DNA from: a virus
DNA: 48,131 nucleotides
IMG/VR virus record: IMGVR_UViG_3300048011_000237
Span: 1 to 48,131 of that record
Reading direction: 5' to 3' (one strand)
Position numbers and translations under genes: made by a program. The notes under the pieces are model-generated. The model saw only the letters and a list, made by a program, of their open reading frames with translations. It was not told the origin of the DNA and ran no database searches. Positions 14,787 to 32,648 of this stretch are shown piece after piece; the first letter of the stretch is position 1; every line of letters begins with the position of its first letter.

Positions 14787-14794
14787 TATTTATC
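14787..14794 (-). promoter_or_regulatory. Late promoter box GATAAATA (IscU-like gene)
   Basis: GATAAATA is followed by ACTCT and the ATG at 14781. It overlaps the 3' end of gene 43, so the IscU-like gene can be transcribed late and independently of the polymerase gene. Confidence 0.65.
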
Positions 14795-17297
14795 CAAAAA
14801 AGGAATCTAAACTCGCAACTGGTTCTACATTCCAGTTAATATGTCCTATGATGTTTCGTAATGGTTCGATAAATGATTTATCAAACTGCAAATCATAATC
14901 TACAAATCTATGTAAATCAAATTCTTTTGGTAATGAGTTAGTGAATGATATCACATTCTCATTGATAGGGTTTGGCATAGTAAGATATGTAAAGTGAATC
15001 TTCTCACCGTTTTGAATAGGTTCATATCTCTTCAGTAGATTCATTTCTTTAAGTCTATGATTGAATAGTAATGAACCTCTGACATGAATTGGTGTACCCT
15101 TGCCATAGATGTGAGTTGGGTCTGCATACTGAATGAGACCTTTACACCCTCTAGGGAATGCAACATCTTCTGGCGGAAGTTCTCTGAATTCTTTTCTTGC
15201 AGTTTCTACAAAGTCCCATAACTGCTGTTCATCACCACGCATGACAATCTTAATTGCATCTTCTAGTCTTCGTCTCACCCACAAAGGAGTTGATGACTTT
15301 GCAGTCTCAATGCCCATAAGTTTGAGTTTAGGTGTCTCTAGTCTAACACCCTCATTATCAAATACATTTAGAATATATCTTTTCTTTGCAGTCCATATAC
15401 CTTTGTCTGCAATTACTTCACGACCCATTTCCATTTTCTGTTGATATGCATTGGTATAATCTGCAAGGTCTTCGAAACCTGCATCAAGTACATCTTCTAT
15501 CTTAGACTCTGCCTTAGATAAGAAATCACATATCTTGTCTTTGTCTGTTTCGCCAGGCATAACTGTTTCTACGAATTTATCCATTGTGAGATAAATTGAA
15601 TCAGTATCCATTGCAATGACATAATCTTCATTGTCTGTTTTAAGTATCTTGTTTAGATATTCGTTGACTATCTTCTCTGACCATTTGATAACTAACTGAC
15701 CAGAATAAGTAATTGCCTCTGCAAGATTTGGGTCAAAGAAAGCAAACCACTGATTCGCCATAGAACCATATGCTGAGTTAAGTGCAATCTTTCTTACTTG
15801 TTGATTGTTGTATGCCCTCTTAATAAGAGTATCTAGTTTCTTAATCTCTTTAGGGTCAGAAGTCTTCTCTTTGACTTTCTGATACTCAATCATCTTTTTC
15901 TTCCACGCCTTACGCTCATCGTACATGACTTCCATAATCTCAGGAAAGAAACCTTGTTTATCTCGTGTGAACATTACACCATTGGGTGCGACTGTAGCGT
16001 TCATCTTCTTAGCAATAGATAAGTCCACTTTCTTGTGCAACATCAATTCTACATTCGTATCTTGTCTATGACCCTTAATCATTTTCTCTGGTGAAATATT
16101 CCACTGCATAATCAAATGAGGATATAGAGAGTTCAAGTCAAATGACATAACCCAATTATGACCACCAGTGATTGGTTCTTTAACATAGGCACCTGCAATC
16201 TGATTCGTCTTGTTCTCGTTTCGTTTTTGAGGTGGTGTTTGAACTCCTTGTTCTTTTAAGAAGTTGTAGATGATTGTTTCCCAATACTTAACCATACCGA
16301 ATGTGTCGATGTAATTACACTTGGCATCATACGCCATTGCCTGAGTCAAGTCTAAGAAACCTAGTTTGTCTTCTAGTTCTTCTACGAGAACAACATCTTT
16401 AACATTATACTCTAAGTACTTTGCGTAATTGTTTTTGTATAAGGTATGCAATGAACCATACTCTGAATAATCTAGTTTCTTCTTACCTAATTCAAAGTGA
16501 GCGATGTAATCTAGTTTGTATGACTCTTGGTTATGAAAAGTAGACCTACGATATAGTTCTAAGTAGTCTACGATGTTGACACCATACAAGTCAAATATCT
16601 GAGTCTTCTGATAACCATTCTGTAAAAACTCTCTACTAGAAGACATATTCCATGGCGATAACTTTTTGTGTGCATCTTCACCGAATAGTCTATCGATTCT
16701 ATTACAAAGATAAGTCATATCAAATGCATCTACATTCCAACCAGTAATGATATCGAACCATTCTTGTCGCCAGTATTTAATAAACTCTGTTAGTAGATGT
16801 GCCTCATTTTTACAGTTGATATAGATTACATCTGATTCTGTTTCCCATTCACCTAGACCAAATACAACACAAGACTTACCGAATGGTTTGATTGAGATTG
16901 CGTTGACCTTTTCTATTGCTTCGCCTGGTTCTGGAAAACCATTTTCTGATTCACACTCAATATCAAGTGTGGCAATTTTGATTGCATTTGCATCAAAGTC
17001 TATCTTGCCAGGAAACTTATCTGATATGTAAGTATACACATACCTATCGTAACCATGAACTTCAAAACCGTCTATGCCTTGATACTTTTCTTTGAACTTT
17101 CTTGCACCACCCATTGAGTCTAAGTTGACTACATCTAGTGGTCTGCCGTCAAGTGCCTTGTAAGGCGTAGCGCTTTTCTTTGAGGGAATGAAATGATTTG
17201 GACGATAAGATACGGAAAGTTTTTGTTTCTTTCCGTTCTGATAACCAATCGCTAATATTTTGTCACGAGTGCGACATACATTTGTGTAAAAATCCAT
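14790..17297 (-). CDS. 43: DNA polymerase gp43 (family B)
   Basis: An 835-residue family B polymerase, slightly shorter than T4 gp43. The 3'-5' exonuclease motifs are at the N-terminal half (TLDIECESENGFPEPGEA with the DxE pair, WNVDAFDMTYL, and YNVKDVVLVEEL). Polymerase motif A is SFDLNSLYPHLI, motif B is KIALNSAYGSMANQ and motif C is AMDTDSIYLTMD. The KKRYI motif is KKRYILNVFD. It replicates the phage genome with clamp gp45. The class B promoter -10 box ends 6 nt before the ATG, and no Shine-Dalgarno is present, so the mRNA is predicted to be leaderless. Confidence 0.97.
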   Translation of the reverse strand: MDFYTNVCRTRDKILAIGYQNGKKQKLSVSYRPNHFIPSKKSATPYKALDGRPLDVVNLDSMGGARKFKEKYQGIDGFEVHGYDRYVYTYISDKFPGKIDFDANAIKIATLDIECESENGFPEPGEAIEKVNAISIKPFGKSCVVFGLGEWETESDVIYINCKNEAHLLTEFIKYWRQEWFDIITGWNVDAFDMTYLCNRIDRLFGEDAHKKLSPWNMSSSREFLQNGYQKTQIFDLYGVNIVDYLELYRRSTFHNQESYKLDYIAHFELGKKKLDYSEYGSLHTLYKNNYAKYLEYNVKDVVLVEELEDKLGFLDLTQAMAYDAKCNYIDTFGMVKYWETIIYNFLKEQGVQTPPQKRNENKTNQIAGAYVKEPITGGHNWVMSFDLNSLYPHLIMQWNISPEKMIKGHRQDTNVELMLHKKVDLSIAKKMNATVAPNGVMFTRDKQGFFPEIMEVMYDERKAWKKKMIEYQKVKEKTSDPKEIKKLDTLIKRAYNNQQVRKIALNSAYGSMANQWFAFFDPNLAEAITYSGQLVIKWSEKIVNEYLNKILKTDNEDYVIAMDTDSIYLTMDKFVETVMPGETDKDKICDFLSKAESKIEDVLDAGFEDLADYTNAYQQKMEMGREVIADKGIWTAKKRYILNVFDNEGVRLETPKLKLMGIETAKSSTPLWVRRRLEDAIKIVMRGDEQQLWDFVETARKEFRELPPEDVAFPRGCKGLIQYADPTHIYGKGTPIHVRGSLLFNHRLKEMNLLKRYEPIQNGEKIHFTYLTMPNPINENVISFTNSLPKEFDLHRFVDYDLQFDKSFIEPLRNIIGHINWNVEPVASLDSFFG

Positions 17298-22014: not shown

Positions 22015-22422
22015 TTATTTAATTTTAATTACTTGAGGTTTCTCTTCTTCTGGAATCTCTTTTAAGAGTGAGATGATGAGCATACCATCTTTAACTTCTG
22101 CACCCTTTACTTTTACATATTCACCAAGAGTCCAACTTCTTGCAAAGTTTCTCTCAGAAATACCTTTATGTGCAAAGTCAATCTCCCTAGTCTCTTTCTT
22201 ACCATCGACTTTAAGAACTGAATCTTTAAACTCAATGAATAATTCATCTTTACTAAATCCTGCTACTGCAAGTTCAATGATGTAAGACTCTTCAGAAGAC
22301 TTGATTACATTGTAAGGTGGGAAGTTATCGTTAATATTCGAGATTCTCTCCATGTCTGAAAAGAGTTTATCGAATCCTATTGTGAATGGTCTGAACTGAC
22401 CAAAGTTATCTATTGCTGTCAT
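22015..22422 (-). CDS. Small heat-shock protein Hsp20
   Basis: A 135-residue alpha-crystallin-family chaperone. The core domain spans about 40-128: PYNVIKSSEESYIIELAVAG, then GKKETREI, then SERNFARSWTLGEYV, and the GMLIISLLKEIPEE strand. The C-terminal PQVIKIK contains an IxI-type motif (VIKI) used for oligomer assembly. Such chaperones are common in marine T4-like phages and are thought to help virion protein folding. The start has GGAGAAAAT directly before the ATG, and a structured leader lies upstream. Confidence 0.94.
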   Translation of the reverse strand: MTAIDNFGQFRPFTIGFDKLFSDMERISNINDNFPPYNVIKSSEESYIIELAVAGFSKDELFIEFKDSVLKVDGKKETREIDFAHKGISERNFARSWTLGEYVKVKGAEVKDGMLIISLLKEIPEEEKPQVIKIK

Positions 22423-23085: not shown

Positions 23086-23778
23086 TTATTTAGTGACATT
23101 TAATAATTCAAATTCTTCGCATTTCATACATTTACCACAATTAGTAAAATGTATACAACTTTGAACTAATGGTTTTATATCATCTCTTATATAATCCCAT
23201 TGCTGTTTTTTTGTCCAACCTATTAGTGGTGCTGATATTGTTTGTTTGATTGGCCAATCAAAAGAATGTTTATAACTTCCGTCATGATGTTTTGCATCTG
23301 CATCATGATATCCTTTTACTTTTTGGGGTATGTTCTGTAATGCCTCAAATACATTTTGAACCTGATACTTTGTAGGGTCGACTATAGAACAGTCTCCTAA
23401 TCCATCATTGAACTCTAACATACCACTATTTGCTCCCCAATAGAAATTTTTAACTTTTGAAAATCTCAATGATGCATTACACATTGCTAATAACCAATGT
23501 CTTGTAGAATAAAAAGAAGTTTCGACATCACGATATTTGGTATAATGTTCATGAGTATGTGTTATAAAGTCAACATCAAGTAGTTTACATATTAGTTCTA
23601 AATGATTGGGAAGACGATTAGCTTGAATTGTTTTTTTTCTTGCAGGATAATGACTGTATATTGCAGCCACTTTTAATTTGTTATCACAAAGATATTGTAG
23701 AAGTGATGTAGATTCCACTCCGCCAGAAAATGCAACAACGGCATCTATTTCTGAAGTATTTTTAGAAAAGCGATTCAT
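23086..23778 (-). CDS. QueC-like PP-loop ATPase
   Basis: A 230-residue PP-loop protein. AVVAFSGGVESTSLLQYL is the SGGxxS pyrophosphate loop near residues 14-30. YWGANSGM follows the nucleotide region. The C-terminus CIHFTNCGKCMKC (C-x6-C-x2-C-x2-C) resembles the zinc site of QueC, which makes 7-cyano-7-deazaguanine (preQ0). PLIGWTKKQQW fits the QueC-like substrate region. No other queuosine/deazaguanine gene is present, so the product is uncertain; other PP-loop ligases are possible. It overlaps the oxygenase gene by 17 bp, at the end of the cyclase operon. Confidence 0.75.
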   Translation of the reverse strand: MNRFSKNTSEIDAVVAFSGGVESTSLLQYLCDNKLKVAAIYSHYPARKKTIQANRLPNHLELICKLLDVDFITHTHEHYTKYRDVETSFYSTRHWLLAMCNASLRFSKVKNFYWGANSGMLEFNDGLGDCSIVDPTKYQVQNVFEALQNIPQKVKGYHDADAKHHDGSYKHSFDWPIKQTISAPLIGWTKKQQWDYIRDDIKPLVQSCIHFTNCGKCMKCEEFELLNVTK

Positions 23779-24400
23779 ATTTTCCCTTTTGTTTAGGTGT
23801 AGAAAGTGTAAAAACTATAGAATATCTTTTTGTATTTGTCTGCATAGGTTTAACCATATGTGTTATATTATTGGGAAATAAAACCAATAAAGATTCTACT
23901 ACACTTATACTTAAAACATCAGTATGAGAATTTTTATATGCAAAGTTTGGAGAAAAGAGAATTAAATCTCCCTCGTCTTTACTATATCTACTTTTCATGA
24001 AATTATCTTTTTCTACTAGACCCTTTGGAAAATATACAGCAGTCATTTTGGTAGAAACCGAACCCCTTATTTCGTTTTTTTTACTGTTATGAGTATGTGG
24101 AAAAGAAAATCCACCAGCTCCATGTATAAGATTAGCCCAACAGGCTGATACTTGCATCTCTTCTTCTAGGAGTAAATCGTCTATCTGACGAGTTAAAGTT
24201 CTAAAACTATGATAAGTATGTTGCATCTTAGTGTTCGATTGCCAAGTGTTATTGGGTGTAGAAGCAAAACTTCGTGTGTCACCATCTGGCGCAAGGAGTT
24301 TTTCTTGTTCAATTTCATCAATCAAGTTTTTGTTTAACTCAGTGTTATCTGGAAATTTATGACTCAGAAAAGGAGTGTAAAATATTTTATCTAAATGCAT
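23762..24400 (-). CDS. Putative 2OG-Fe(II) oxygenase
   Basis: A 212-residue double-stranded beta-helix type protein. HTHNSK near residues 97-102 offers an iron ligand region, EGDLILFSP is the characteristic strand, and LLVLFPNNITHMVKP contains the distal His. KRYSIVFTL follows with the Arg that usually holds 2-oxoglutarate. The order resembles the phage 2OG-Fe(II) oxygenase family, but the HxD pair is not clean, so activity is uncertain. It overlaps both neighbours. Confidence 0.68.
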   Translation of the reverse strand: MHLDKIFYTPFLSHKFPDNTELNKNLIDEIEQEKLLAPDGDTRSFASTPNNTWQSNTKMQHTYHSFRTLTRQIDDLLLEEEMQVSACWANLIHGAGGFSFPHTHNSKKNEIRGSVSTKMTAVYFPKGLVEKDNFMKSRYSKDEGDLILFSPNFAYKNSHTDVLSISVVESLLVLFPNNITHMVKPMQTNTKRYSIVFTLSTPKQKGKYESLF

Positions 24401-25158
24401 TTTATATCTGTAATTTTATCTAGGTGTTCTATATTTATTTGATTATCAAATACTCTATTTTCTATATCAAAAACAAAAACAGACGCAACATCTCCTTCGT
24501 TATTGCCAACTAAAAGTTTTCCATTTCTTTTTGCTAAACCTCTACAGAAACCCTTATTAATGAAATATCTATCGTCATCAATGACTAGTTCATAGGCACC
24601 TGTATCAATAGTATAGAAATGTTCATCAACAATTATGTTATGACATTTTCTTCCTAATTCCTTTATCTTAGTATCTCCTCTATAAAACTCAGATGGTTTT
24701 AGATTTCTATTGTGAAATACATAGTATAACTCATCTTTAAAAAATAGACTGTTGCAATGAGATTTTTTAGGAAGAACTTTAAAGAATGAACTGCCGTCAT
24801 CTAAATTATGTATACCAATTGAGTTTTCGTGTGTATTCGCAACATACATGATATTGTCTTTCTTTAATATTTGATGCGTGTTAAAAAAACTAGTAATAGG
24901 TAATAGACCTTTGAATGTGTAATCATTGATATCGTAGATACCTATTTTAGTATGATTTGCAATGTAAATATTATCTTCATCATAAGTTATGCCAAAGGGT
25001 CTAAAGGTTGGTCTGGTGTTTTTGCCTGATTTCATTCCTTCAACTGACAAGTCATCTAATTCAGGAGTGTAGGGTTTGACCAATTGTAGTTCAAAATTAT
25101 CATTGTATACAAGAAAAGATACTCTGTTATCTTTTTTTGTACCAGTTATTATTATCAT
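24391..25158 (-). CDS. Beta-propeller (NHL/WD-like) protein
   Basis: A 255-residue protein of repeating four-strand units. Examples are RPFGITYDEDNIYIANHTKI, then NIMYVANTHENSIGIHNLDD, then NGKLLVGNNEGDVASVFVFD, spaced at about 45 residues, which suggests a 5-6-bladed propeller. No signal peptide is visible. I choose the ATG at 25158, which overlaps the upstream stop by 4 bp (ATGA) and follows GGAAGAAG. It may bind a ligand or a partner of the neighbouring enzymes; this is inference from the operon. Confidence 0.68.
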   Translation of the reverse strand: MIIITGTKKDNRVSFLVYNDNFELQLVKPYTPELDDLSVEGMKSGKNTRPTFRPFGITYDEDNIYIANHTKIGIYDINDYTFKGLLPITSFFNTHQILKKDNIMYVANTHENSIGIHNLDDGSSFFKVLPKKSHCNSLFFKDELYYVFHNRNLKPSEFYRGDTKIKELGRKCHNIIVDEHFYTIDTGAYELVIDDDRYFINKGFCRGLAKRNGKLLVGNNEGDVASVFVFDIENRVFDNQINIEHLDKITDIKCI

Positions 25159-25748
25159 CTTCTTCCACAGTTTTTTTCTGCTCTGTGCCATACATTGTAG
25201 TTGTTGCCTACAACTAATGCCATTAAAAGATTTATATTATTCATAGTTTTTGGTTCTAGAGTCTGTCGTTCTATATCAGAATTGATTGCAGGTATGAGAA
25301 CAAGTGTTTTAACAAGAAACATTTGTGGTACTGATGGTTGTTCACCAACAATTGGATTTATTTCATAAACACAATTGTATTTAAGTCCACGATAAGTTGT
25401 ATAGATATCTGCAAGTTGTAGTGTGGTAAATGTAATCCACTGCTTAGTTGTGATTGGGTCAGATAGTGTAAATTGTGACTTGTTCTGATTTTCCTTTAAC
25501 TGTAATTCTATCAACTCTAGTGAATGCTCTGTCTGGACATAGTTGATAAGTTCTTTCTGATAACAACAAGTCCACCCCATTATAATTTCTTGTTTGGCCT
25601 TCGAGTCTAGCGCCCAAGTTGACGGCATCTCCGATGACGGAATAGTCAAATCTAAGTTCGGAACCCATGTTTCCGACAATACATTCGCCTGAACTGATAC
25701 CGATGCCCACATTAATAGGAGGCAGGTTAAGAGGTTTAAGTTCTTCAT
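25155..25748 (-). CDS. Putative membrane/exported protein overlapping the cyclase 3' end
   Basis: A 197-codon frame. Residues 1-22 look like a signal peptide (MKNLNLLTCLLLMWASVSVQ, then AN), but about 290 nt of this frame lie inside the cyclase gene in another frame. After the cyclase stop, residues about 97-197 are certain to be free coding sequence. They contain FTTLQLADIYTTYRGL and INPIVGEQPSVPQMFLVK, typical of small membrane proteins with two or three helices. Either the whole frame is overprinted, or translation starts near 25460-25500 from a non-ATG codon. No function is recognised. Confidence 0.5.
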   Translation of the reverse strand: MKNLNLLTCLLLMWASVSVQANVLSETWVPNLDLTIPSSEMPSTWALDSKAKQEIIMGWTCCYQKELINYVQTEHSLELIELQLKENQNKSQFTLSDPITTKQWITFTTLQLADIYTTYRGLKYNCVYEINPIVGEQPSVPQMFLVKTLVLIPAINSDIERQTLEPKTMNNINLLMALVVGNNYNVWHRAEKNCGRR

Positions 25749-27297
25749 TTAATTCCTTTGTTGCATCTAGGACTTCTAGTGCTGATTTTACGGCAAGGTC
25801 TGCGTGGTTTTCACAATCAAGTGGTGCATTCCAAAAACTCATTATGCAATCCCCCATATACTTATCTATGGTTCCACTATTATTTAGTATGATTTTAGTT
25901 TGCATATCTAAAAACTTATTAATGAGTTCTACTAAACCTTCTGGATCATCTTTCTGCATATAGTGTTCGCTTATGGGAGTGAATCCGATTATGTCCATAA
26001 ACATGAAAGTCATCTCTCTTCTATCTCCGCCAAGTCTAAGTTTACTTGGGTCTTTTTGTAGTTCTTCAATCATGTCAGGAGATAAATACTTTTGGAACTG
26101 CTTCTTAATTTGTTCTTTGAGTTGGTAAGTAGTATAGTATTGGTTAAAAGAAGCGTGTCCGAAAACAACAACGGAGCTTAACGATGACCAGAAGATATCG
26201 AAAAGAACGAGATTGTAAAACCACAAATAGTGACTTAACCCCACCTGAAGTAAAACGAACCCTACAGAGACTATCGCCGAGAAGGCTGTGGGAAGTTTGT
26301 AGACCGATACCAGTATTCCTAGAAGGACTAACAGAAGAAGAAAAGTCTCGAGCATTTCAAGAGTCTCGGATACATGTATTTGAACTCCTGACGAAACGGT
26401 TTGGATTAGGTGTGCTTGAACTTCGTGAGGATACATTACACCCATTGGGGTTGAAACTGGAATAGATAACCCCTCAGCGGTTAGTCCATAGACTAGAATC
26501 TTTCCTTCTATATCAGAATCTTGCAAGTCTGCAAATGAGATAGATTCGAATTCGTTCCAATACGAAATCATCAAGTCTGCACTTGATGTGGTCTCTATTG
26601 GTTTGTCTCTTCCCATTTTAACCCATTCAATACCTGCATCAGCAGTTACCCTAGTTTGATAATTGGGTTGGTCATAGTATGCTCTGAGAACTTCGAATCC
26701 TAAACTTGGATATAATTGACCATTTGCCTGGATGACTAGCGGAATCGCTCTGTTTGTTCCGTCAAAATTTGGTGTATTCGCCACAGGTGGTGTGGCAACT
26801 GTCACGCCCATACCCCAAGCTGAGTTTTGTAATTCGGTTCGGGGACTTACTAAACCTGAAAAGTTCCATACATGGTCTTGTATATTACCATCTCCGAATA
26901 CAGATGTATTTACAAATGGTGCGTTGCCTGATTCTTTTTGAATTGTTGGTGCTGATGATAATATCGTTAATCTGTTTTCTAGTGCCTCTGCAAAGACTTC
27001 ATCACCACCGAATCTATCTTCTTCTGCGAATAGTATATTGAATACATGAGTATTTGAGTGATGTGTTTCCCATAATGTATCTGCGTATATGTCTCTAGGG
27101 AAAGGATATTGACCGTACTTCTCTATTGCCTTTTCATCTATGTTGACCAGTAGTATGTCGTCTACTATCACTTTTTCTTTTTGTTGATGTAGAACATCGA
27201 AGTAAGACCATCTAACATTATCTATTAGATAAGGCGACCATATCTTTATGCCCACGAGTGCAATGATGGTTATAAGTACAGTTTTCCAATTATACAT
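25459..27297 (-). CDS. CHASE2-domain adenylate/guanylate cyclase (class III)
   Basis: A 612-residue membrane sensor. TM1 is residues about 6-22. A periplasmic CHASE2-like domain spans 25-300. Three transmembrane helices lie at about 315-390. The class III catalytic domain is at 415-600. Catalytic residues are in place: metal Asp in FMFMDIIGFT (435), Asp in KYMGDCIMSF (483), and transition-state Asn and Arg in DAVNLGARLE (560 and 564). It should make cAMP (or cGMP) on sensing a periplasmic signal. Full-length sensor cyclases are exceptional in phages. It lies downstream of a FecR-domain and curli gene cluster. Confidence 0.92.
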   Translation of the reverse strand: MYNWKTVLITIIALVGIKIWSPYLIDNVRWSYFDVLHQQKEKVIVDDILLVNIDEKAIEKYGQYPFPRDIYADTLWETHHSNTHVFNILFAEEDRFGGDEVFAEALENRLTILSSAPTIQKESGNAPFVNTSVFGDGNIQDHVWNFSGLVSPRTELQNSAWGMGVTVATPPVANTPNFDGTNRAIPLVIQANGQLYPSLGFEVLRAYYDQPNYQTRVTADAGIEWVKMGRDKPIETTSSADLMISYWNEFESISFADLQDSDIEGKILVYGLTAEGLSIPVSTPMGVMYPHEVQAHLIQTVSSGVQIHVSETLEMLETFLLLLVLLGILVSVYKLPTAFSAIVSVGFVLLQVGLSHYLWFYNLVLFDIFWSSLSSVVVFGHASFNQYYTTYQLKEQIKKQFQKYLSPDMIEELQKDPSKLRLGGDRREMTFMFMDIIGFTPISEHYMQKDDPEGLVELINKFLDMQTKIILNNSGTIDKYMGDCIMSFWNAPLDCENHADLAVKSALEVLDATKELNEELKPLNLPPINVGIGISSGECIVGNMGSELRFDYSVIGDAVNLGARLEGQTRNYNGVDLLLSERTYQLCPDRAFTRVDRITVKGKSEQVTIYTI

Positions 27298-27363
27298 AGA
27301 TATCTATCAGGTTACCCTTTTTCCATTCGAGTAGTCGATATCTCCTGTATCTGTTTTGTGGCA

Positions 27364-27543
27364 CTATTCAATTGTGGGCCACGCAAAAAAGAATATGTAT
27401 AGACAAACACCAATGAGTGATATTGCAAGAACTGTTGACCAGAAACTTGACCACCATTGTTGTTTTTTCTTTCTACGATATTCGTTAACCATTGCGATGG
27501 TCCTTTCTCGTGCATCTTTTGAAAATGGATTCGCTTCATTCAT
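27364..27543 (-). CDS. Small single-TM protein (59 aa)
   Basis: A 59-residue ORF: a charged N-terminus (MNEANPFSKDARERTIAMVN), a basic KKKQQWW segment, then a TM helix (VLAISLIGVCLYIFFFAW). Its ATG overlaps the stop of the 33-aa ORF by 4 bp (ATGA). A different frame of 75 codons over the same DNA is less plausible: it lacks the TM signature and the coupling. It sits between the curli genes and the cyclase. Confidence 0.65.
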   Translation of the reverse strand: MNEANPFSKDARERTIAMVNEYRRKKKQQWWSSFWSTVLAISLIGVCLYIFFFAWPTIE

Positions 27544-27641
27544 AATATTAAACCGATAATAAAACCTATGTTTAGTCCTAAAGAACAGACTAAGATAAAG
27601 TCTTTTTTAAAAGAATACGGTATCATGTCGATTGTGTTCAT
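27540..27641 (-). CDS. Micro-membrane protein (33 aa)
   Basis: A 33-codon ORF (MNTIDMIPYSFKKDF, then a TM helix ILVCSLGLNIGFIIGLIL). Its start and stop both overlap neighbouring genes by 4 bp (ATGA), making a chain of coupled micro-membrane genes. Function unknown. Confidence 0.55.
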   Translation of the reverse strand: MNTIDMIPYSFKKDFILVCSLGLNIGFIIGLIL

Positions 27642-27895
27642 GAGAATTTCTTCTGTATTCGTTTATAGATATAGTATATAGACAGTCCATAAGTAGCGAG
27701 AACAGTCATTGTAAAACCTATGTAAATAAGTTCTATTGGTGTTAGGAAGAGAACTTGCCAAACGAAATCAGATGCAGCTTCTACATCACCCAAAGATTCA
27801 GGCATGACCATATCGTTCTCTTCAAAGAGTTCTAATATGTCGTCATACTCTTCTTCAGTGAGACACTCGTAAAACTCAGGTGGACATTCACTCAT
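27638..27895 (-). CDS. Small membrane protein (85 aa)
   Basis: An 85-residue protein with a very acidic N-terminal half (residues 1-45, with EEEYDDILELFEEND) and a membrane helix (about 50-75, PIELIYIGFTMTVLATYGLS) followed by a basic tail KRIQKKFS. It overlaps the curlin-like gene by 4 bp at the start and the 33-aa gene by 4 bp at the stop. It is part of the curli-to-cyclase operon. Function unknown; an adaptor between envelope proteins is one possibility. Confidence 0.68.
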   Translation of the reverse strand: MSECPPEFYECLTEEEYDDILELFEENDMVMPESLGDVEAASDFVWQVLFLTPIELIYIGFTMTVLATYGLSIYYIYKRIQKKFS

Positions 27896-28662
27896 TGTTG
27901 GGTCACCGATGTACTACAACCACCGACTGTCATGCAATCGACTGATATAGTATAAGACTGAGTACCACTAGTACCAAATTGTAATAATGTTAAGTCTGTT
28001 CCATATAAACCATCAAGAGTTATATTTGCAGTGTGATTTGCACTAGTTCCTTTCTGACGGACATACACATCGTTATAATCATTGTAGATTGTTAAGTTTG
28101 TAGTTTTTACACCATTGCCTTGTTGTTTGATTTGAACTTCGTTATGGTCACCTGCTAAATGCAAATCAAAGTTATGACCATCCCATGCATTATGTTGATT
28201 TGTTTGTTGAACTGCTAATTTGTTATAGTCGCCATACATTGTAATGTCTATCTCGTGTCCGCCACCTTCACTACCATCATGACTCCAATCTAAATTTGTT
28301 TCGGAGTCTAGTGAATCCCAAGTAATGCCTTGACCAAGTTTCATTTTGTTACCAGTACCACTGACCTCATCAAATACAATTGAGTTGGGATAAGTATAAC
28401 TTGATGATGTATTGTGTATGTTGTATTGAACCATATACACACCTAGACTAGAAGCATTAATATATGAATTAGCATCTAACATTTTAATTTCATTATCGAA
28501 ACCAATTTGTTCTATACCTAGTTCAAAATTATCTCCGCTTTGTTCAATAGATATAACATTGTCATCAGCGTATACAGGAAATACCATGAGATAACAAGCA
28601 CCCCATGGTAGTATCCAGTATTTGTAAAATTTATTTTTTAATTTGTTTAAAAAATCCACCAT
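27892..28662 (-). CDS. Curlin-like (CsgA/CsgB-type) repeat protein
   Basis: A 256-residue exported protein. The signal peptide is residues about 1-33 (hydrophobic WILPWGACYLMVFPVYA, cleaved before DD). The mature part has curlin-type repeats with the x-Q-x-G-x-x-N spacing: ISIEQSGDNFELGIEQIGFD, QIKQQGNG, and a VYVRQKG strand. Curlins form extracellular amyloid nucleated by CsgB and secreted through CsgG. Here Gln/Asn ladders are irregular, so amyloid formation is not assured. I start at 28662 (AGGAT upstream), overlapping the 51-aa gene by 16 bp. Confidence 0.82.
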   Translation of the reverse strand: MVDFLNKLKNKFYKYWILPWGACYLMVFPVYADDNVISIEQSGDNFELGIEQIGFDNEIKMLDANSYINASSLGVYMVQYNIHNTSSSYTYPNSIVFDEVSGTGNKMKLGQGITWDSLDSETNLDWSHDGSEGGGHEIDITMYGDYNKLAVQQTNQHNAWDGHNFDLHLAGDHNEVQIKQQGNGVKTTNLTIYNDYNDVYVRQKGTSANHTANITLDGLYGTDLTLLQFGTSGTQSYTISVDCMTVGGCSTSVTQQ

Positions 28663-28802
28663 AATAATAATCCTAAAATTAATCCCTCGGTGTATGACAC
28701 CCATAACATTTCATATTCATCTAAACCAAAATAGTCGGCAACTTCCCATGTTAGGTTTTCATGCCATTGTCTTAGTTTAGTAAAGTCAATATTTATGCTC
28801 AT
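28647..28802 (-). CDS. Small membrane protein (51 aa)
   Basis: A 51-residue ORF with an N-terminal soluble part (MSINIDFTKLRQWHENLTWE) and a C-terminal membrane helix ending GLILGLLLWWIF. I prefer the ATG at 28802 over 28856 because AAGGAGAGATTT lies directly before it and the longer frame would overlap the FecR gene. It sits between the FecR-domain gene and a curlin-like gene. Function unknown. Confidence 0.62.
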   Translation of the reverse strand: MSINIDFTKLRQWHENLTWEVADYFGLDEYEMLWVSYTEGLILGLLLWWIF

Positions 28803-28812
28803 AAATCTCTCC

Positions 28813-29964
28813 TTAATCTTGTCGTATAACAATTGTAATTCCATCTCCATCTCCAAATGTCATGACACCTGAGTATCCTGGAACTTCGGCATCTATAATA
28901 CCTGAACCACCACTTGTTATAATTATATTTATGACTCCTTGGACATCACGAAAGAAAACTAAGTCTCCGTCTTGTTCGAAAACATTAAACTGAGAATCTT
29001 TGTTGAAACCTTGTGAGGCACCTTTAAGTGCAAACCCAGCTAATTCAGTACCCGAACTACTTTTGGAACCTAACGATACCGTGGTTCTCTCTAATTCTTC
29101 TATAACATCTAATAAGTCTTGTAAAAAATCCACATCCAAATAATCTATGTCCAACTCTGAAAATGATAAATCTTCAGTCGTATCGGCCAAAGCATCTCCC
29201 TCAAGTTCATTGAACTCTAAGAAGTCTACATCTAATAGACCTTGGTCATCATAGTTTTCATCTTGATAGGATTCTTCCATCGCATTTCGTATTTCCGAAG
29301 GCGGATTTACGATGAACATGTTGTCAATCAGACTCGGTGTAATACCTTGAACCGTGACTGCTGTAGTTGGTGATGAATCAAACGATGCAACAGTAGTTGC
29401 CTGATATGGTTGATTTAAAACAACTTCACCACCGTCATTATAAACTAGTATTTCTCCAGATGATTCACCTGTATCTTCATCCGGAAGTAAGATTACCATA
29501 GTCCTTCCCAACTCATCAATGGTGGTTGTAAAATCTGTCCCTCTCATTGTGATATTGGCTGTAGGAGTAGATACATCTACATTTTGTTTTTTAATTCTTG
29601 AACCACCACCCGAGGCGAATCGTGCTGTGCCTCGTGCCATTCGTATTGACATTTTGGATAAACTTGGGTCGGGGTCGTAATATGCCTCGTCTATGTAAAC
29701 GAGTGAGTTTTCTGTTAAACTCAATTTTTCATTATCTAAAAATTGTATGAGCATACGCCCATTGGCAGTCTCTGCTTCATCATACATGTTGATGTCTGTA
29801 CCGACATCTGTTAGAATTCTGTCCTGCTCTCTTTTTACAGATGTGACACCTGTAGATTCAATTACACCGCCAATGGGCTCAGCCCAGCTGAACCCACCAG
29901 CGAATAATAAAAAGAAACTAACTATCGCTGCCGGAATCTTTTTGTGTAATCTGAATAATCGCAT
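28813..29964 (-). CDS. FecR-domain exported protein
   Basis: A 383-residue exported protein. The signal peptide is residues about 8-29 (PAAIVSFFLLFAGGFSWAEP). The FecR domain (about 35-180) has the LSLTENSLVYIDEAYYDPDP and TPTANITMRGTDFTTTIDEL signatures of this beta-strand domain. The C-terminal half is acidic. FecR domains transmit signals across the periplasm, and in bacteria often sit next to CHASE2 cyclases. The start is ATG 29964 or GTG 29970; neither has a clear Shine-Dalgarno. It overlaps the curlin-like gene 29918-30652. Confidence 0.88.
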   Translation of the reverse strand: MRLFRLHKKIPAAIVSFFLLFAGGFSWAEPIGGVIESTGVTSVKREQDRILTDVGTDINMYDEAETANGRMLIQFLDNEKLSLTENSLVYIDEAYYDPDPSLSKMSIRMARGTARFASGGGSRIKKQNVDVSTPTANITMRGTDFTTTIDELGRTMVILLPDEDTGESSGEILVYNDGGEVVLNQPYQATTVASFDSSPTTAVTVQGITPSLIDNMFIVNPPSEIRNAMEESYQDENYDDQGLLDVDFLEFNELEGDALADTTEDLSFSELDIDYLDVDFLQDLLDVIEELERTTVSLGSKSSSGTELAGFALKGASQGFNKDSQFNVFEQDGDLVFFRDVQGVINIIITSGGSGIIDAEVPGYSGVMTFGDGDGITIVIRQD

Positions 29965-30652
29965 TGTCACTGTTTACATTAAGATTGACATTTGCATTAG
30001 GTGTTGCACACCCTCCGCCAGAAGCTGCACATGTGCCTGATATCTGAGTGATATCAACATCAGCACTGTCTCCTGTAAAATCAAAATTAAGTGTTTGTGA
30101 ACCATCTTTTTGCAATGTATTGAAATTAGAACTAGAACCAGTCACATCGAAATTCCATGTGACATCATCTGATTCCCAATCAATATCAAAAACATTACTA
30201 CTTCCAATGAGAACTAAATCCGCATTTAATCTCTCTGCACTTGCAACAGCACCTTGGTCGATATCGAATGTATTCGAATCGCCTGTCATTGCGAAATTGA
30301 TGTCTGAATCATCTGAACTACCTGTAGAACCTATGTTCCAGTCAATAGCGTTAGAATCACCAGTCATCGATATAGCGTAGTTCGATGTATCGGCAACGAG
30401 AGGTCCGAATAACAAGTTCTTGTTACCTATCATATCTATGTTGAAATCCAAAGTCACACCAGTAATGGTCATGTTTGAACCAGAACCACTTGAAAAGTCG
30501 TTTAGTCCTACTTTGTTACCAAAACCAACTTGGTCAACATATAATTTTAGAGTATCACCAACTTGTGTTATCATAATCTCATTATCATCAGTTGCAGCTG
30601 CGAAAACGAATGGTGTCGACATTAGTAATAAAATACTTAAAATTTTATTCAT
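29918..30652 (-). CDS. Curlin-like exported repeat protein
   Basis: A 244-residue exported protein. The signal peptide is MNKILSILLLMSTPFVFA, cleaved before AAT. The first repeats are of curlin type: EIMITQVGDTLKLYVDQVGF. Later repeats are spaced at about 20-24 residues with GDSNxhD or GSSNxFDID cores, ending QITQKDSG. These form stacked beta arcs, consistent with a secreted beta-solenoid or amyloid subunit. It has an excellent Shine-Dalgarno (AAAAGGAGAAGAAA, then ATG) and overlaps csgG by 8 bp. Confidence 0.84.
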   Translation of the reverse strand: MNKILSILLLMSTPFVFAAATDDNEIMITQVGDTLKLYVDQVGFGNKVGLNDFSSGSGSNMTITGVTLDFNIDMIGNKNLLFGPLVADTSNYAISMTGDSNAIDWNIGSTGSSDDSDINFAMTGDSNTFDIDQGAVASAERLNADLVLIGSSNVFDIDWESDDVTWNFDVTGSSSNFNTLQKDGSQTLNFDFTGDSADVDITQISGTCAASGGGCATPNANVNLNVNSDNAIIQITQKDSGSDS

Positions 30653-31610
30653 TTTCTTCTCCTTTTATTGAGTGTAAATCATTTACACCATCACTATTGT
30701 GTGGGTGTCTATGACCTTCCTCTATTTTCCAAAAACCCCTATCATGCCCTTGGTAGATTAATTCCAGTACGGCAGCCTCAATAGCTGTTCGTACCGCATA
30801 TGTCACTGACTCATTATTACCCACTCCGTCCTCGAACTCTAGCAATTGTGTACCTTCTTCAATGAATCGGAATACATCGCCGCCTGAACCATAAGAAAGG
30901 ATAGTCTTTCTTGTTTGGACATTCAATAATACTTCACCTGTTAGAACTGAAACAGCTCTCATACTAACCGTGACAGCATCTTGACGATACTGTCTACTAA
31001 CTCCAATTCCTAGTGTCCTTGCGCCTCGACCACCAGTTAATAAATTGGAATCATAACCTATTATACCACCCTCTATTATCATACCTGCGAATAGTAAGGG
31101 TTGTAAATTTTGAAACTTGTCTTCGCCTTGTTGTTTAGCAAAGTCTTGTCTAGCAGAACGAATGATTTGTCTCTCTCTTACTAAGTTGTCTATGCCATGT
31201 CTTTCAACAACTCTAAACCATGTTCCTTTACCTGCCGTTTTAAGTGCATCAATAACCATTTCGGTTGCACCTTGTGTCACAGCAGTAGAAAATGATGCGA
31301 GATTATCTTCTGCCTTTCTTTGACCAGTCTTATCTATAAAATTATAAACTGCAACAGTAGGTCTTTCTTTTGCCTTAGGCAAATTCAGTAGTTCTAAATG
31401 TGAAGGTAGATTAATTACAGTAGCATTTTCTACACATATGTAATTTCTAGACCATGCCTTTGCGACACCTGTGACAACATCTCTGCCGAAACCCTCATCA
31501 AATCTTCCTGTCTCATAGGCACAATCTGCTGGGTTGTCTGACCACTTTGGAACAGATGCACATCCAGATAGTAAAAGTACGCAGGTGAGTAAATATTTAA
31601 CCAGTTCCAT
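30645..31610 (-). CDS. csgG: CsgG-like curli secretion lipoprotein
   Basis: A 321-residue lipoprotein of the CsgG family, which forms the nonameric outer-membrane curlin channel. The lipobox is VLLLSGCASV. The family signature is VAVYNFIDKTGQRK, then GATEMVIDALKTAG, FRVVERHGIDNLVRERQII, and GGRGARTLG. I use the ATG at 31610, which puts the signal peptide at the N-terminus and overlaps csgF by 14 bp. A longer frame from 31682 lies inside csgF. The length is a little above E. coli CsgG (277). Confidence 0.93.
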   Translation of the reverse strand: MELVKYLLTCVLLLSGCASVPKWSDNPADCAYETGRFDEGFGRDVVTGVAKAWSRNYICVENATVINLPSHLELLNLPKAKERPTVAVYNFIDKTGQRKAEDNLASFSTAVTQGATEMVIDALKTAGKGTWFRVVERHGIDNLVRERQIIRSARQDFAKQQGEDKFQNLQPLLFAGMIIEGGIIGYDSNLLTGGRGARTLGIGVSRQYRQDAVTVSMRAVSVLTGEVLLNVQTRKTILSYGSGGDVFRFIEEGTQLLEFEDGVGNNESVTYAVRTAIEAAVLELIYQGHDRGFWKIEEGHRHPHNSDGVNDLHSIKGEENE

Positions 31611-32085
31611 CTGAGTCTTGTCCAAAGTTTCCTGTTCCGATTGGTATCTCAATAACTGTTTCTGTTCCATCGGAATCAACAATTGTCATTCGTATAAATT
31701 CTGAACCATCTTCGTTAGTCATTACTTCATATGTGACAACATTGCCCTCTAAACTAAATGAACCAAATCTAACTGAACCGTCATTCGAAAACATAGACTC
31801 AACCAATTGTTTTGCCATTTGAGCATAAATTCGTGATTCTAAATTACGAATAAATTTGGCCATGGTTGTATTGTCTTCTGCCCTTTCAGCTGCCTTTCTA
31901 GCAGATTCAAGTGCATCTTCTATTTCTTTTTTTCTTGTAAACTCTTGGTTCTCAACGGTTAGGTAATGTGATGCTGTGCCTATTCCACTGAAACTAGGGT
32001 TTTTAAATTTATGTTTTATATCAGCCTGTACGCTTTCGCTAATACAGAATACTGAAACTAAGAATATGATTTGTAATAATTTCAT
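31597..32085 (-). CDS. csgF: CsgF-like curli assembly factor
   Basis: A 162-residue protein with a signal peptide (MKLLQIIFLVSVFCISESVQ, cleaved before AD) and the CsgF marker KFKNPSFSGIG directly after, which is the part that inserts into the CsgG pore. The remainder has AERAEDNTTMAKFIRNLESR and C-terminal strands (VTYEVMTNEDGSEFIRMTIV). The length is near that of E. coli CsgF (138). It precedes csgG with overlap. No csgE is recognised. Confidence 0.9.
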   Translation of the reverse strand: MKLLQIIFLVSVFCISESVQADIKHKFKNPSFSGIGTASHYLTVENQEFTRKKEIEDALESARKAAERAEDNTTMAKFIRNLESRIYAQMAKQLVESMFSNDGSVRFGSFSLEGNVVTYEVMTNEDGSEFIRMTIVDSDGTETVIEIPIGTGNFGQDSDGTG

Positions 32086-32339
32086 TTCTTTTTCACCTCT
32101 TCCTTTTTGGCATTCTCTTTCATCTCTAAAACTACATCTACTTTTTGTTGTAGTCTTATTAAGTCTTGGTCTAACATTCTTGTTTGGTCTATTACTTTAA
32201 TTAATTGAAAGTGCATTTTTTCAATTTCGGGTTCTAGTTTTTCACCTACAAACCACCAAATGTAATATATGAAATAACCGAGTCCTACTGCCATCACAAT
32301 GGGAAATCCGAAATCGGAGATTAATTGTGCAATGTCCAT
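32082..32339 (-). CDS. Membrane protein with coiled coil (85 aa)
   Basis: An 85-residue protein: TM helix at residues about 11-30 (GFPIVMAVGLGYFIYYIWWF), then a long coiled coil (KMHFQLIKVIDQTRMLDQDL) and a Lys/Glu tail. I recall similar proteins in marine T4-like phages. The design fits a small holin-like or membrane scaffold protein. It overlaps csgF by 4 bp and abuts the similar 98-aa gene, so it probably belongs to the late curli unit. Confidence 0.74.
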   Translation of the reverse strand: MDIAQLISDFGFPIVMAVGLGYFIYYIWWFVGEKLEPEIEKMHFQLIKVIDQTRMLDQDLIRLQQKVDVVLEMKENAKKEEVKKK

Positions 32340-32635
32340 CAGTCTCTCCTGACATCGAGCTTATCATCTTCTATGAAGTTTTCAGCTCTCGCAATTCTCT
32401 CTATGTCTGGTCTCAACTCTAAAGCACTTGATACAAGTAAATCTATCTTAATCATTTCGTTAGACATTGTTCTTGCTCGATTTTCTAAAGATTTACAGAA
32501 CATTGTAAGTGTGGAAATAGAATCAACTACACCCTCAAGTATCTGTTTAATAACTATGAATATAAAGAACCCCATTACTACTGAACCAGCAATCGGAGCA
32601 CCCACTTCACCTATTAGATTAAAAATCTCTTCCAT
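32339..32635 (-). CDS. Membrane protein with coiled coil (98 aa)
   Basis: A 98-residue protein: TM helix about 11-32 (GAPIAGSVVMGFFIFIVIKQ), then a helical region with CKSLENRARTMSNEMIKIDL, and a charged tail. It resembles the 85-aa neighbour in layout and may be a distant paralogue. It is first in the unit that continues into csgF and csgG, driven by a full TATAAATA box 5 nt before its ATG. Function unknown. Confidence 0.76.
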   Translation of the reverse strand: MEEIFNLIGEVGAPIAGSVVMGFFIFIVIKQILEGVVDSISTLTMFCKSLENRARTMSNEMIKIDLLVSSALELRPDIERIARAENFIEDDKLDVRRD

Positions 32636-32640
32636 ACTGT

Positions 32641-32648
32641 TATTTATA
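32641..32648 (-). promoter_or_regulatory. Late promoter box TATAAATA (curli operon)
   Basis: A full-consensus late box with ACAGT then the ATG at 32635. It lies after a strong terminator and is the only promoter I can see upstream of csgF, csgG, the curlins and FecR. This points to late expression. Confidence 0.75.

Follow-up and report, generated by a model that had tools for sequence, protein, structure and literature searches.

What role does a CHASE2 nucleotide cyclase have in a T4-like phage, and does its gene encode the cyclase alone? These questions are raised by IMG/VR virus record IMGVR_UViG_3300048011_000237, whose positions 1 to 48131 (48131 bases) form the stretch analysed here, referred to as the window. 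It carries T4-type replication genes, for example a DNA polymerase at 14790-17297 (phrog_262), together with genes for curli secretion, a FecR-domain protein and the cyclase. A preliminary description took FecR and cyclase for a phage second-messenger module of a kind not previously described. Judged from its sequence, the set csgF-csgG-curlin-fecR-curlin-CHASE2 cyclase belongs to the phage curli (type VIII secretion) clusters already published. What seems to be new in this lineage are two further predicted conserved coding sequences within the cyclase gene, one in the +1 frame and one on the opposite strand. Searches of the open-licence PubMed Central (PMC) literature for a phage CHASE2 cyclase or for such overlapping genes brought up no report of these overlaps. 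We consider it probable that the locus is a published curli cluster member whose cyclase gene additionally holds, in the +1 frame, the N-terminal portion of a DUF5658-like membrane protein and, antisense, a coding sequence of 93 amino acids (aa), and that it acts through the late sensing mechanism proposed below. Our confidence is lowered because the DUF5658 match lies below its cut-off and because two related loci, L196 and L180, weaken two of the counts. The cyclase gene and the open reading frames (ORFs) that overlap it are laid out as follows.

25459-27297, minus strand: CHASE2 class III cyclase of 612 aa, a predicted adenylate cyclase (Pfam domains and residues)
26184-26465, plus strand: antisense ORF of 93 aa inside the cyclase gene (cyclase codons 277-371), recognised by comparative constraint
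26173-26176, plus strand: GGAG, Shine-Dalgarno (SD)-like site of the antisense ORF, kept among relatives
26081-26088, plus strand: GATAAATA, candidate late promoter of the antisense ORF, which co-segregates with the open frame
25155-25748, minus strand: DUF5658-like ORF of 197 aa with an N-terminal hydrophobic helix (PF18902, E 4e-4), overlapping the cyclase in the +1 frame at 25459-25748

Evidence for the antisense ORF comes from synonymous divergence, which dips over cyclase codons 273-416 in the lineage and not in control genes. The ORF sits in this dip, where it crosses the membrane region of the cyclase gene. Comparisons were made between greedy closest pairs that share no sequence and are not proven independent on the tree. 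Where the antisense frame is open, the synonymous ratio over codons 277-371 is 0.36 (25 pairs; 164 observed, 450.6 expected; Z -14.2, assuming independent codons, as do all Z values here), and the same 25 pairs yield 0.95 and 1.12 in control stretches. For genes without the antisense ORF the ratio is 1.10 in 37 pairs, and for sister genes lacking it 1.09 in 3 pairs. When the lineage is left undivided by openness, the ratio is 0.44 (28 pairs, Z -13.2).

The lineage (group D, 66 genes) was set by its open +1 frame and its subgroup Da by an open antisense frame, so that stop counts within these groups hold partly by construction. ORFs shorter than 1300 nucleotides (nt) were set aside, and for the column statistics genes more than 95% identical were removed, which reduced the lineage from 66 to 49 genes and the controls from 81 to 72. 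The antisense frame is open in 44 of the 49 non-redundant lineage genes and in 2/72 control genes (L019 and L022). Free of this construction are the comparison of gene presence with openness, the synonymous divergence of the undivided lineage, and the counts of starts, SD sites and promoters. An ATG with an SD site stands at the antisense start place in 42/44 and 2/2 open-frame genes, the misses being L180 and L196, and in 0/5 and 0/70 genes without the ORF. An SD-like 4-mer was found in all 43 rows that have the start motif, 3 of 46 rows without that motif being left out. About 100 nt upstream of the ORF, GATAAATA is present in 43/44 Da genes, in none of the 5 lineage genes without the ORF (Dn) and in 2/72 controls (C), again L019 and L022.

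A tree of the CHASE2 and membrane part, built from 39 rows including every second Da gene, requires two changes of the antisense ORF, which may be read as one gain and one loss. Searching with the antisense protein retrieved 35 viral loci, and all 35 have a cyclase on the opposite strand. Amino-acid divergence makes a recombined block an unlikely cause of the low synonymous divergence: in the same pairs it is 0.103 in the antisense stretch, and two control stretches give 0.097 and 0.053. In control genes the antisense stretch reaches 0.207, twice the amino-acid change of the lineage. Openness of the antisense frame alone is not convincing. The joint evidence is convincing, and it argues for antisense coding at the level of selection rather than of expression.

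The second overlap is formed by the DUF5658-like ORF, which begins 290 nt before the end of the cyclase gene, so that about 97 of its codons overlap the cyclase 3' end. From 196 records we obtained 152 distinct cyclase ORFs, after removal of those with no stop, containing N or with identical last 600 nt. A DUF5658-like gene, recognised by a profile seeded from the non-overlapping part, lies downstream of 69 of them, and 68 of these 69 are open in the +1 frame for 96-127 codons; the one exception comes from L075, a split gene that supplies its first piece here and counts with its second among the 68. Among the 83 ORFs lacking the downstream gene, the +1 frame stays open for no more than 33 codons in 82; in L058, whose sequence ends 27 nt after the cyclase, it is open for 96. 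Five of the 83 have less than 400 nt downstream (L058, L087, L097, L105, L110) and two are pieces of L194; none of the remaining 76 intact ORFs, each with at least 400 nt of downstream sequence, is open beyond 33 codons. When codons were shuffled with the cyclase protein preserved, none of the five sequences tried reached 96 open +1 codons more than once in 20,000 trials.

In the undivided lineage, synonymous divergence over codons 545-592 is 0.67 times that expected (28 pairs, Z -6.1); it is 0.70 (25 pairs) and 0.42 (3 pairs) in lineage subsets, and 1.24 in 37 control pairs lacking the DUF5658-like gene. Each of the 69 open genes contains an ATG in the +1 frame, 270-345 nt upstream of where the cyclase stops, and an SD-like 4-mer precedes one of the first ATGs in 54 of them (open genes alone were counted). 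Codon-level constraint beyond that of the first frame was thus found for the antisense ORF and for part of the +1 overlap. In L228, whose cyclase has another catalytic domain type, the DUF5658-like gene is separate, with a 17-nt overlap and a hydrophobic N-terminus of its own. L019 and L022 lack the gene, and the catalytic domain of L019 also differs. From these cases we infer that the catalytic end was exchanged and the overlap lost with it. As a side observation, a DUF5658-like C-terminus in L194:2-2009 precedes a different CHASE2 cyclase whose sequence is divided between two frames; tandem cyclases are possible.

The cyclase itself is full length, with CHASE2 (PF05226, E 2.5e-29) at residues 11-325, covering positions 3-255 of the 257 in the profile, and Guanylate_cyc (PF00211, E 3e-18) at residues 428-608; its flanking membrane helices were judged from sequence only. 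Asp435, Asp483, Lys479 and Arg564 are invariant in an alignment of 11 phage cyclases. Asn560, present in the window protein, is Ser in two of the 11, L002 (Melnitz) and L228. We take Asp435 and Asp483 to be the two metal-binding aspartates, Lys479 the adenine contact, and Asn560 and Arg564 the transition-state residues; Lys479 presumably indicates ATP as the substrate. By alignment the class III adenylate cyclase residue set is complete, and the best Protein Data Bank (PDB) sequence matches are bacterial adenylate cyclase domains, for example 6fht, 2w01 and 3r5g. These residues suggest an adenylate rather than a guanylate cyclase, the latter being disfavoured by Lys479. The cyclases at L002:8986-11037 and L228:2057-4096, which have another catalytic domain type and the Ser at the Asn560 position, may differ in activity.

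All genes of the module lie on the minus strand. In order of transcription they encode two small ORFs with hydrophobic stretches, CsgF, CsgG, curlin 1, FecR, a small ORF, curlin 2, three small ORFs, the cyclase and the DUF5658-like ORF. The features upstream of the cyclase are as follows.

32641-32648, minus strand: TATAAATA, putative late promoter of T4 type; the curli operon's first gene begins 5 nt further on, with its ATG at 32635
32339-32635, minus strand: 98-aa ORF with a hydrophobic stretch (phrog_18771), weakly holin-like (phrog_4898, E 0.0017)
32082-32339, minus strand: small ORF with a hydrophobic stretch, related to the 98-aa ORF and 3' of it
31597-32085, minus strand: CsgF (PF10614, E 1.6e-13)
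30645-31682, minus strand: CsgG (PF03783, E 1.7e-54; phrog_20175), with a mechanical TTG start, the real start probably lying further in
29918-30652, minus strand: curlin-repeat protein 1 with a signal-peptide-like start (PF07012, E 7.9e-4, 19.8 bits, just below the Pfam cut-off of 20.7)
28813-29964, minus strand: FecR-domain protein with a signal-peptide-like start (PF04773, E 1.3e-9; phrog_37870), ATG at 29964, mechanical GTG start at 29970
28647-28802, minus strand: small ORF sD, with matches in 55/84 records searched, own copies counted
27892-28704, minus strand: curlin-repeat protein 2 (PF07012, E 1.2e-4, above the cut-off)
27364-27895, minus strand: small ORFs sA, sB and sC with hydrophobic stretches, with matches in 30/84, 7/84 and 23/84 records, own copies counted

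FecR and cyclase are thus separated by a small ORF, curlin 2 and three small ORFs. The Pfam and alignment results bear out the preliminary description in that a full-length CHASE2 cyclase with intact catalytic residues lies downstream of, and on the same strand as, an exported FecR protein and curlin genes. The locus qualifies as a type VIII secretion cluster by its CsgG pore and CsgF, both recognised by Pfam, and by PF07012 curlin repeats in two proteins. A CsgE gate was absent from the 10 window proteins scanned with Pfam, with no search elsewhere. The FecR protein does not fit the FecI-FecR anti-sigma type, which would have a sigma factor as neighbour and a cytoplasmic anti-sigma part: it shows the FecR domain alone, starts like a signal peptide and has no sigma factor among the 10 scanned proteins. 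An RNA element in the 594-nt gap 5' of the cyclase was rejected; Rfam gave three tRNAs only in the window, and the gap contains the three small ORFs. Beyond the DUF5658-like gene lie a QueC-like PP-loop protein and a possible 2OG-Fe(II) oxygenase (below the Pfam cut-off) at 23086-24400 (minus strand), a pair that also follows the DUF5658-like gene in four related loci, L004-L007. An Hsp20 gene (PF00011, E 3.6e-15; matches in 74/84 records) is found further downstream at 22015-22422 (minus strand).

The module is conserved as a unit. In two sets of IMG/VR loci, which may overlap and of which the best 80 of each were retained, FecR, curlin, CsgG and CsgF all lie upstream of the cyclase in 50/50 and 21/22 related loci, counting those with at least 5.5 kb upstream of the cyclase. 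Pattern matches in IMG/VR proved to encode relatives in 365/366 cases in the first set and in at least 584/599 in the second. Together these counts dispose of a recent chance insertion, the outcome that the preliminary description had set against its own proposal. Among 50,697 phage records, tblastn with the cyclase matched eight, six of them over the full length, namely Pelagibacter phage HTVC008M (two records, 38.8% identity) and four strains of Methylophilales phage Melnitz (33.2%); two Acinetobacter phage records match in the catalytic part only. The FecR protein matched six records, from the same HTVC008M and Melnitz phages. The DUF5658-like product had no real match in this set, from which records near the genome of the window may be left out.

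Late expression of the curli operon is plausible from the geometry of a promoter motif. The motif NATAAATA is given as the late promoter of cyanophage S-PM2 in PMC2984593. Four HTVC008M genes, csgF and three structural genes, have this motif 5 nt upstream of their ATG. Across the phage loci examined, NATAAATA-N5-ATG occurs 122 times versus 1-24 times at eight other spacings, a count to which no probability is attached because the loci overlap and are related. The first small ORF at the operon head carries the motif in 35/54 loci. In the window, NATAAATA occurs 15 times on the minus strand and once on the plus strand, where it is GATAAATA. A sigma-70 promoter scan was uninformative (49 found versus 44.4 in shuffles).

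We propose the following sequence of events. The operon would be switched on late, together with the virion genes, and CsgG and CsgF would export the curlin. What the periplasmic CHASE2 domain senses could then be either the FecR protein or the secretion state, and the like may hold in bacteria with FecR adhesins encoded just upstream of such cyclases. The catalytic domain would make cyclic AMP (cAMP), to be read by a receptor of the host. The products of the two overlaps, which have separate start signals, may tune or accompany the membrane module.

Several observations weigh against this reading and its parts. The antisense ORF is missing from 5/49 non-redundant lineage genes; among the 44 that have it, the open frame of L196 encodes a different protein, and that of L180 is shortened and lacks the usual start. 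Taken alone, antisense openness is weak, with a shuffle P of 0.017-0.062 per sequence in six open sequences. The ratio of third-position to first-plus-second-position divergence drops in the antisense stretch of the controls as well (1.84 to 1.02; lineage 1.73 to 0.74), and L228 has the antisense ORF without NATAAATA. For the antisense protein, comparisons at the level of families, sequences and folds gave no match: nothing in Pfam or PHROG, a chance match (E 0.9) by tblastn in the 50,697 phage records, from which close relatives of the window's genome may likewise be missing, a best E of 0.36 in a PDB profile search, nothing at E <= 0.001 with Foldseek against PDB and BFVD, and a best VIA-align Z of 5.0 (human PNPase), inside the stated background of that tool. 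For the +1 overlap, PF18902 scores 21.5 bits and does not reach its curated cut-off of 25.2, hence "DUF5658-like", and synonymous constraint is absent from the signal-like part of the overlap and from its linker part, codons 517-544 (1.17) and 593-611 (1.55). The late timing named in the preliminary description stays plausible, since TATAAATA precedes the operon's head gene in the window by 5 nt, as it does csgF in HTVC008M, but overall the window shows no enrichment of TATAAATA (3 occurrences against an expected 4.86). Finally, the cyclic nucleotide-binding domain PF00027 occurs in 0/9 related phage records, some of which may be fragments; a phage-encoded cAMP receptor was therefore rejected and a host receptor would be needed.

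The alternative that survives best, although we regard it as unlikely, is that the cluster does not signal, CsgG and CsgF forming a pore for lysis timing with the cyclase as a passenger. The part of PMC9004378 that treats Melnitz proposes a lysis role without mentioning the cyclase, and the ORF at the operon head of the window is weakly holin-like; a passenger fits poorly with the joint retention of cyclase, FecR, curlin, CsgG and CsgF in the syntenic loci counted above. It is distinctly less probable that the antisense region is constrained as a regulatory RNA or DNA element and not for a protein. Such an element would suit the late-promoter-like motif facing the cyclase and curli mRNA, and the constraint that extends upstream of the ORF into codons 372-416, which hold the antisense leader (0.54). 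It accords badly with constraint that fills the ORF and with a start and SD site that are kept and disappear together with it. Stops in frame -1 number 0.06-0.14 per 16 codons over codons 289-368 in the lineage versus 1.0-1.9 in controls. The AlphaFold model of the antisense product, with no shuffled sequence as comparison, has four helices and a hairpin at a mean predicted local distance difference test score (pLDDT) of 77.4 and a predicted template modelling score (pTM) of 0.59.

Slightly less probable still, and raised to that level by the same weaknesses that lower our main confidence (the sub-threshold DUF5658 match and the counts touched by L196 and L180), is that the +1 overlap is a mechanical long ORF and that the DUF5658-like protein begins near the cyclase stop. 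The two unconstrained stretches of the overlap would be expected on this account, as would the pLDDT below 50 at residues 16-41 in the AlphaFold model of the product (mean pLDDT 72.8, pTM 0.47), which has an N-terminal helix at 4-24 and three C-terminal helices. Against it stand the openness of 68/69 genes with the gene downstream versus 0/76 without, the constraint at codons 545-592, the upstream in-frame ATGs with their SD-like 4-mers, and the non-overlapping gene of L228, which likewise has an N-terminal hydrophobic stretch. A DUF5658-like part fused to the cyclase by programmed frameshifting would explain the long same-strand +1 overlap and is very improbable given an in-frame ATG in 69/69 genes and an SD-like sequence in 54/69.

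A bolder form of the reading that we prefer, namely a curli cluster member with two coding overlaps, is offered tentatively, and we would sooner doubt it than adopt it. The cyclase gene would be triple-coding, specifying the cyclase, the exported N-terminus of a downstream membrane partner (+1) and an orphan antisense protein made from its own late promoter and ribosome-binding site. The antisense gene would have been gained once in the clade, and the three products would form one late control unit of the curli module.

In this light the FecR/CHASE2 part is an added member of a published phage cluster, and the overlaps matter more. Both are conserved across dozens of marine phage contigs though without a real match in 50,697 phage records. 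Relatives with and without each overlap differ jointly in stops, synonymous constraint, start, SD site and promoter motif, which amounts to a natural experiment and makes overprinting in a double-stranded DNA phage directly testable. The findings also suggest that conserved antisense genes of ocean phages can escape standard gene prediction.

Bacterial genomes provide a first comparison. We considered the best 80 of at least 580 confirmed CHASE2 cyclase matches in genome contigs (29-34% identity, flanks of varying length), which by their record titles are mostly Alphaproteobacteria. As the preliminary description had stated, FecR neighbours CHASE2 cyclases here: a phage-built profile found it in the fetched flank of 27/80 loci, with no random-locus comparison. 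In 14 of the 80, fewer than 160 nt separate the end of a same-strand FecR gene from the cyclase ORF that follows it, a pairing like that of the phage module. Unlike the phage loci, none of the 80 matched the phage-built CsgG, CsgF or curlin profiles, and the FecR proteins are often large and adhesin-like: among eight scanned with Pfam, six carry cadherin, Ig, laminin-G, VWA or RTX domains and two have FecR only. These counts favour a link of the FecR-CHASE2 pair to surface fibres or adhesins, with no contact between the two implied, and adhesin-like FecR proteins beside bacterial CHASE2 cyclases yield a concrete hypothesis for the CHASE2 signal.

Among phages, the claim of an undescribed system did not stand. 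Phage curli clusters that include FecR and adenylate cyclase are described in PMC9599517 (2022), where the pelagiphage type VIII secretion clusters have CsgF, CsgG, curlin, FecR, a second curlin and a cyclase ordered as in the window. The podovirus clusters there begin with a histidine kinase, none being seen among the 10 window proteins scanned; the words antisense, DUF5658 and CHASE do not occur in its main text. The passages on curli genes in PMC7029224 (2020) and PMC9004378 (Melnitz, 2022) do not contain the words cyclase or FecR.

HTVC008M (NC_020484) has the gene order of the window and an annotated cyclase 38.8% identical over its length. Unlike the window, it has no DUF5658-like gene that we found downstream, its +1 frame is closed after 7 codons and its antisense frame has six stops. 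Its second curlin (L001:7658-8983) also matches PA14 (E 2.7e-6), and a carbohydrate-binding part is possible. Melnitz (PMC9004378) likewise shares the gene order and an annotated cyclase (33.2% identical), and differs from the window in the Ser at the Asn560 position, a +1 frame closed after 4 codons and four stops in the antisense frame. The closest parallel to the antisense ORF is offered by the antisense overlapping genes of bacteria (PMC9927249, PMC6294744), which are also coding sequences antisense to an annotated gene. The predicted window ORF differs from these in lying inside a phage sensor gene and in its lineage-wide, codon-level constraint.

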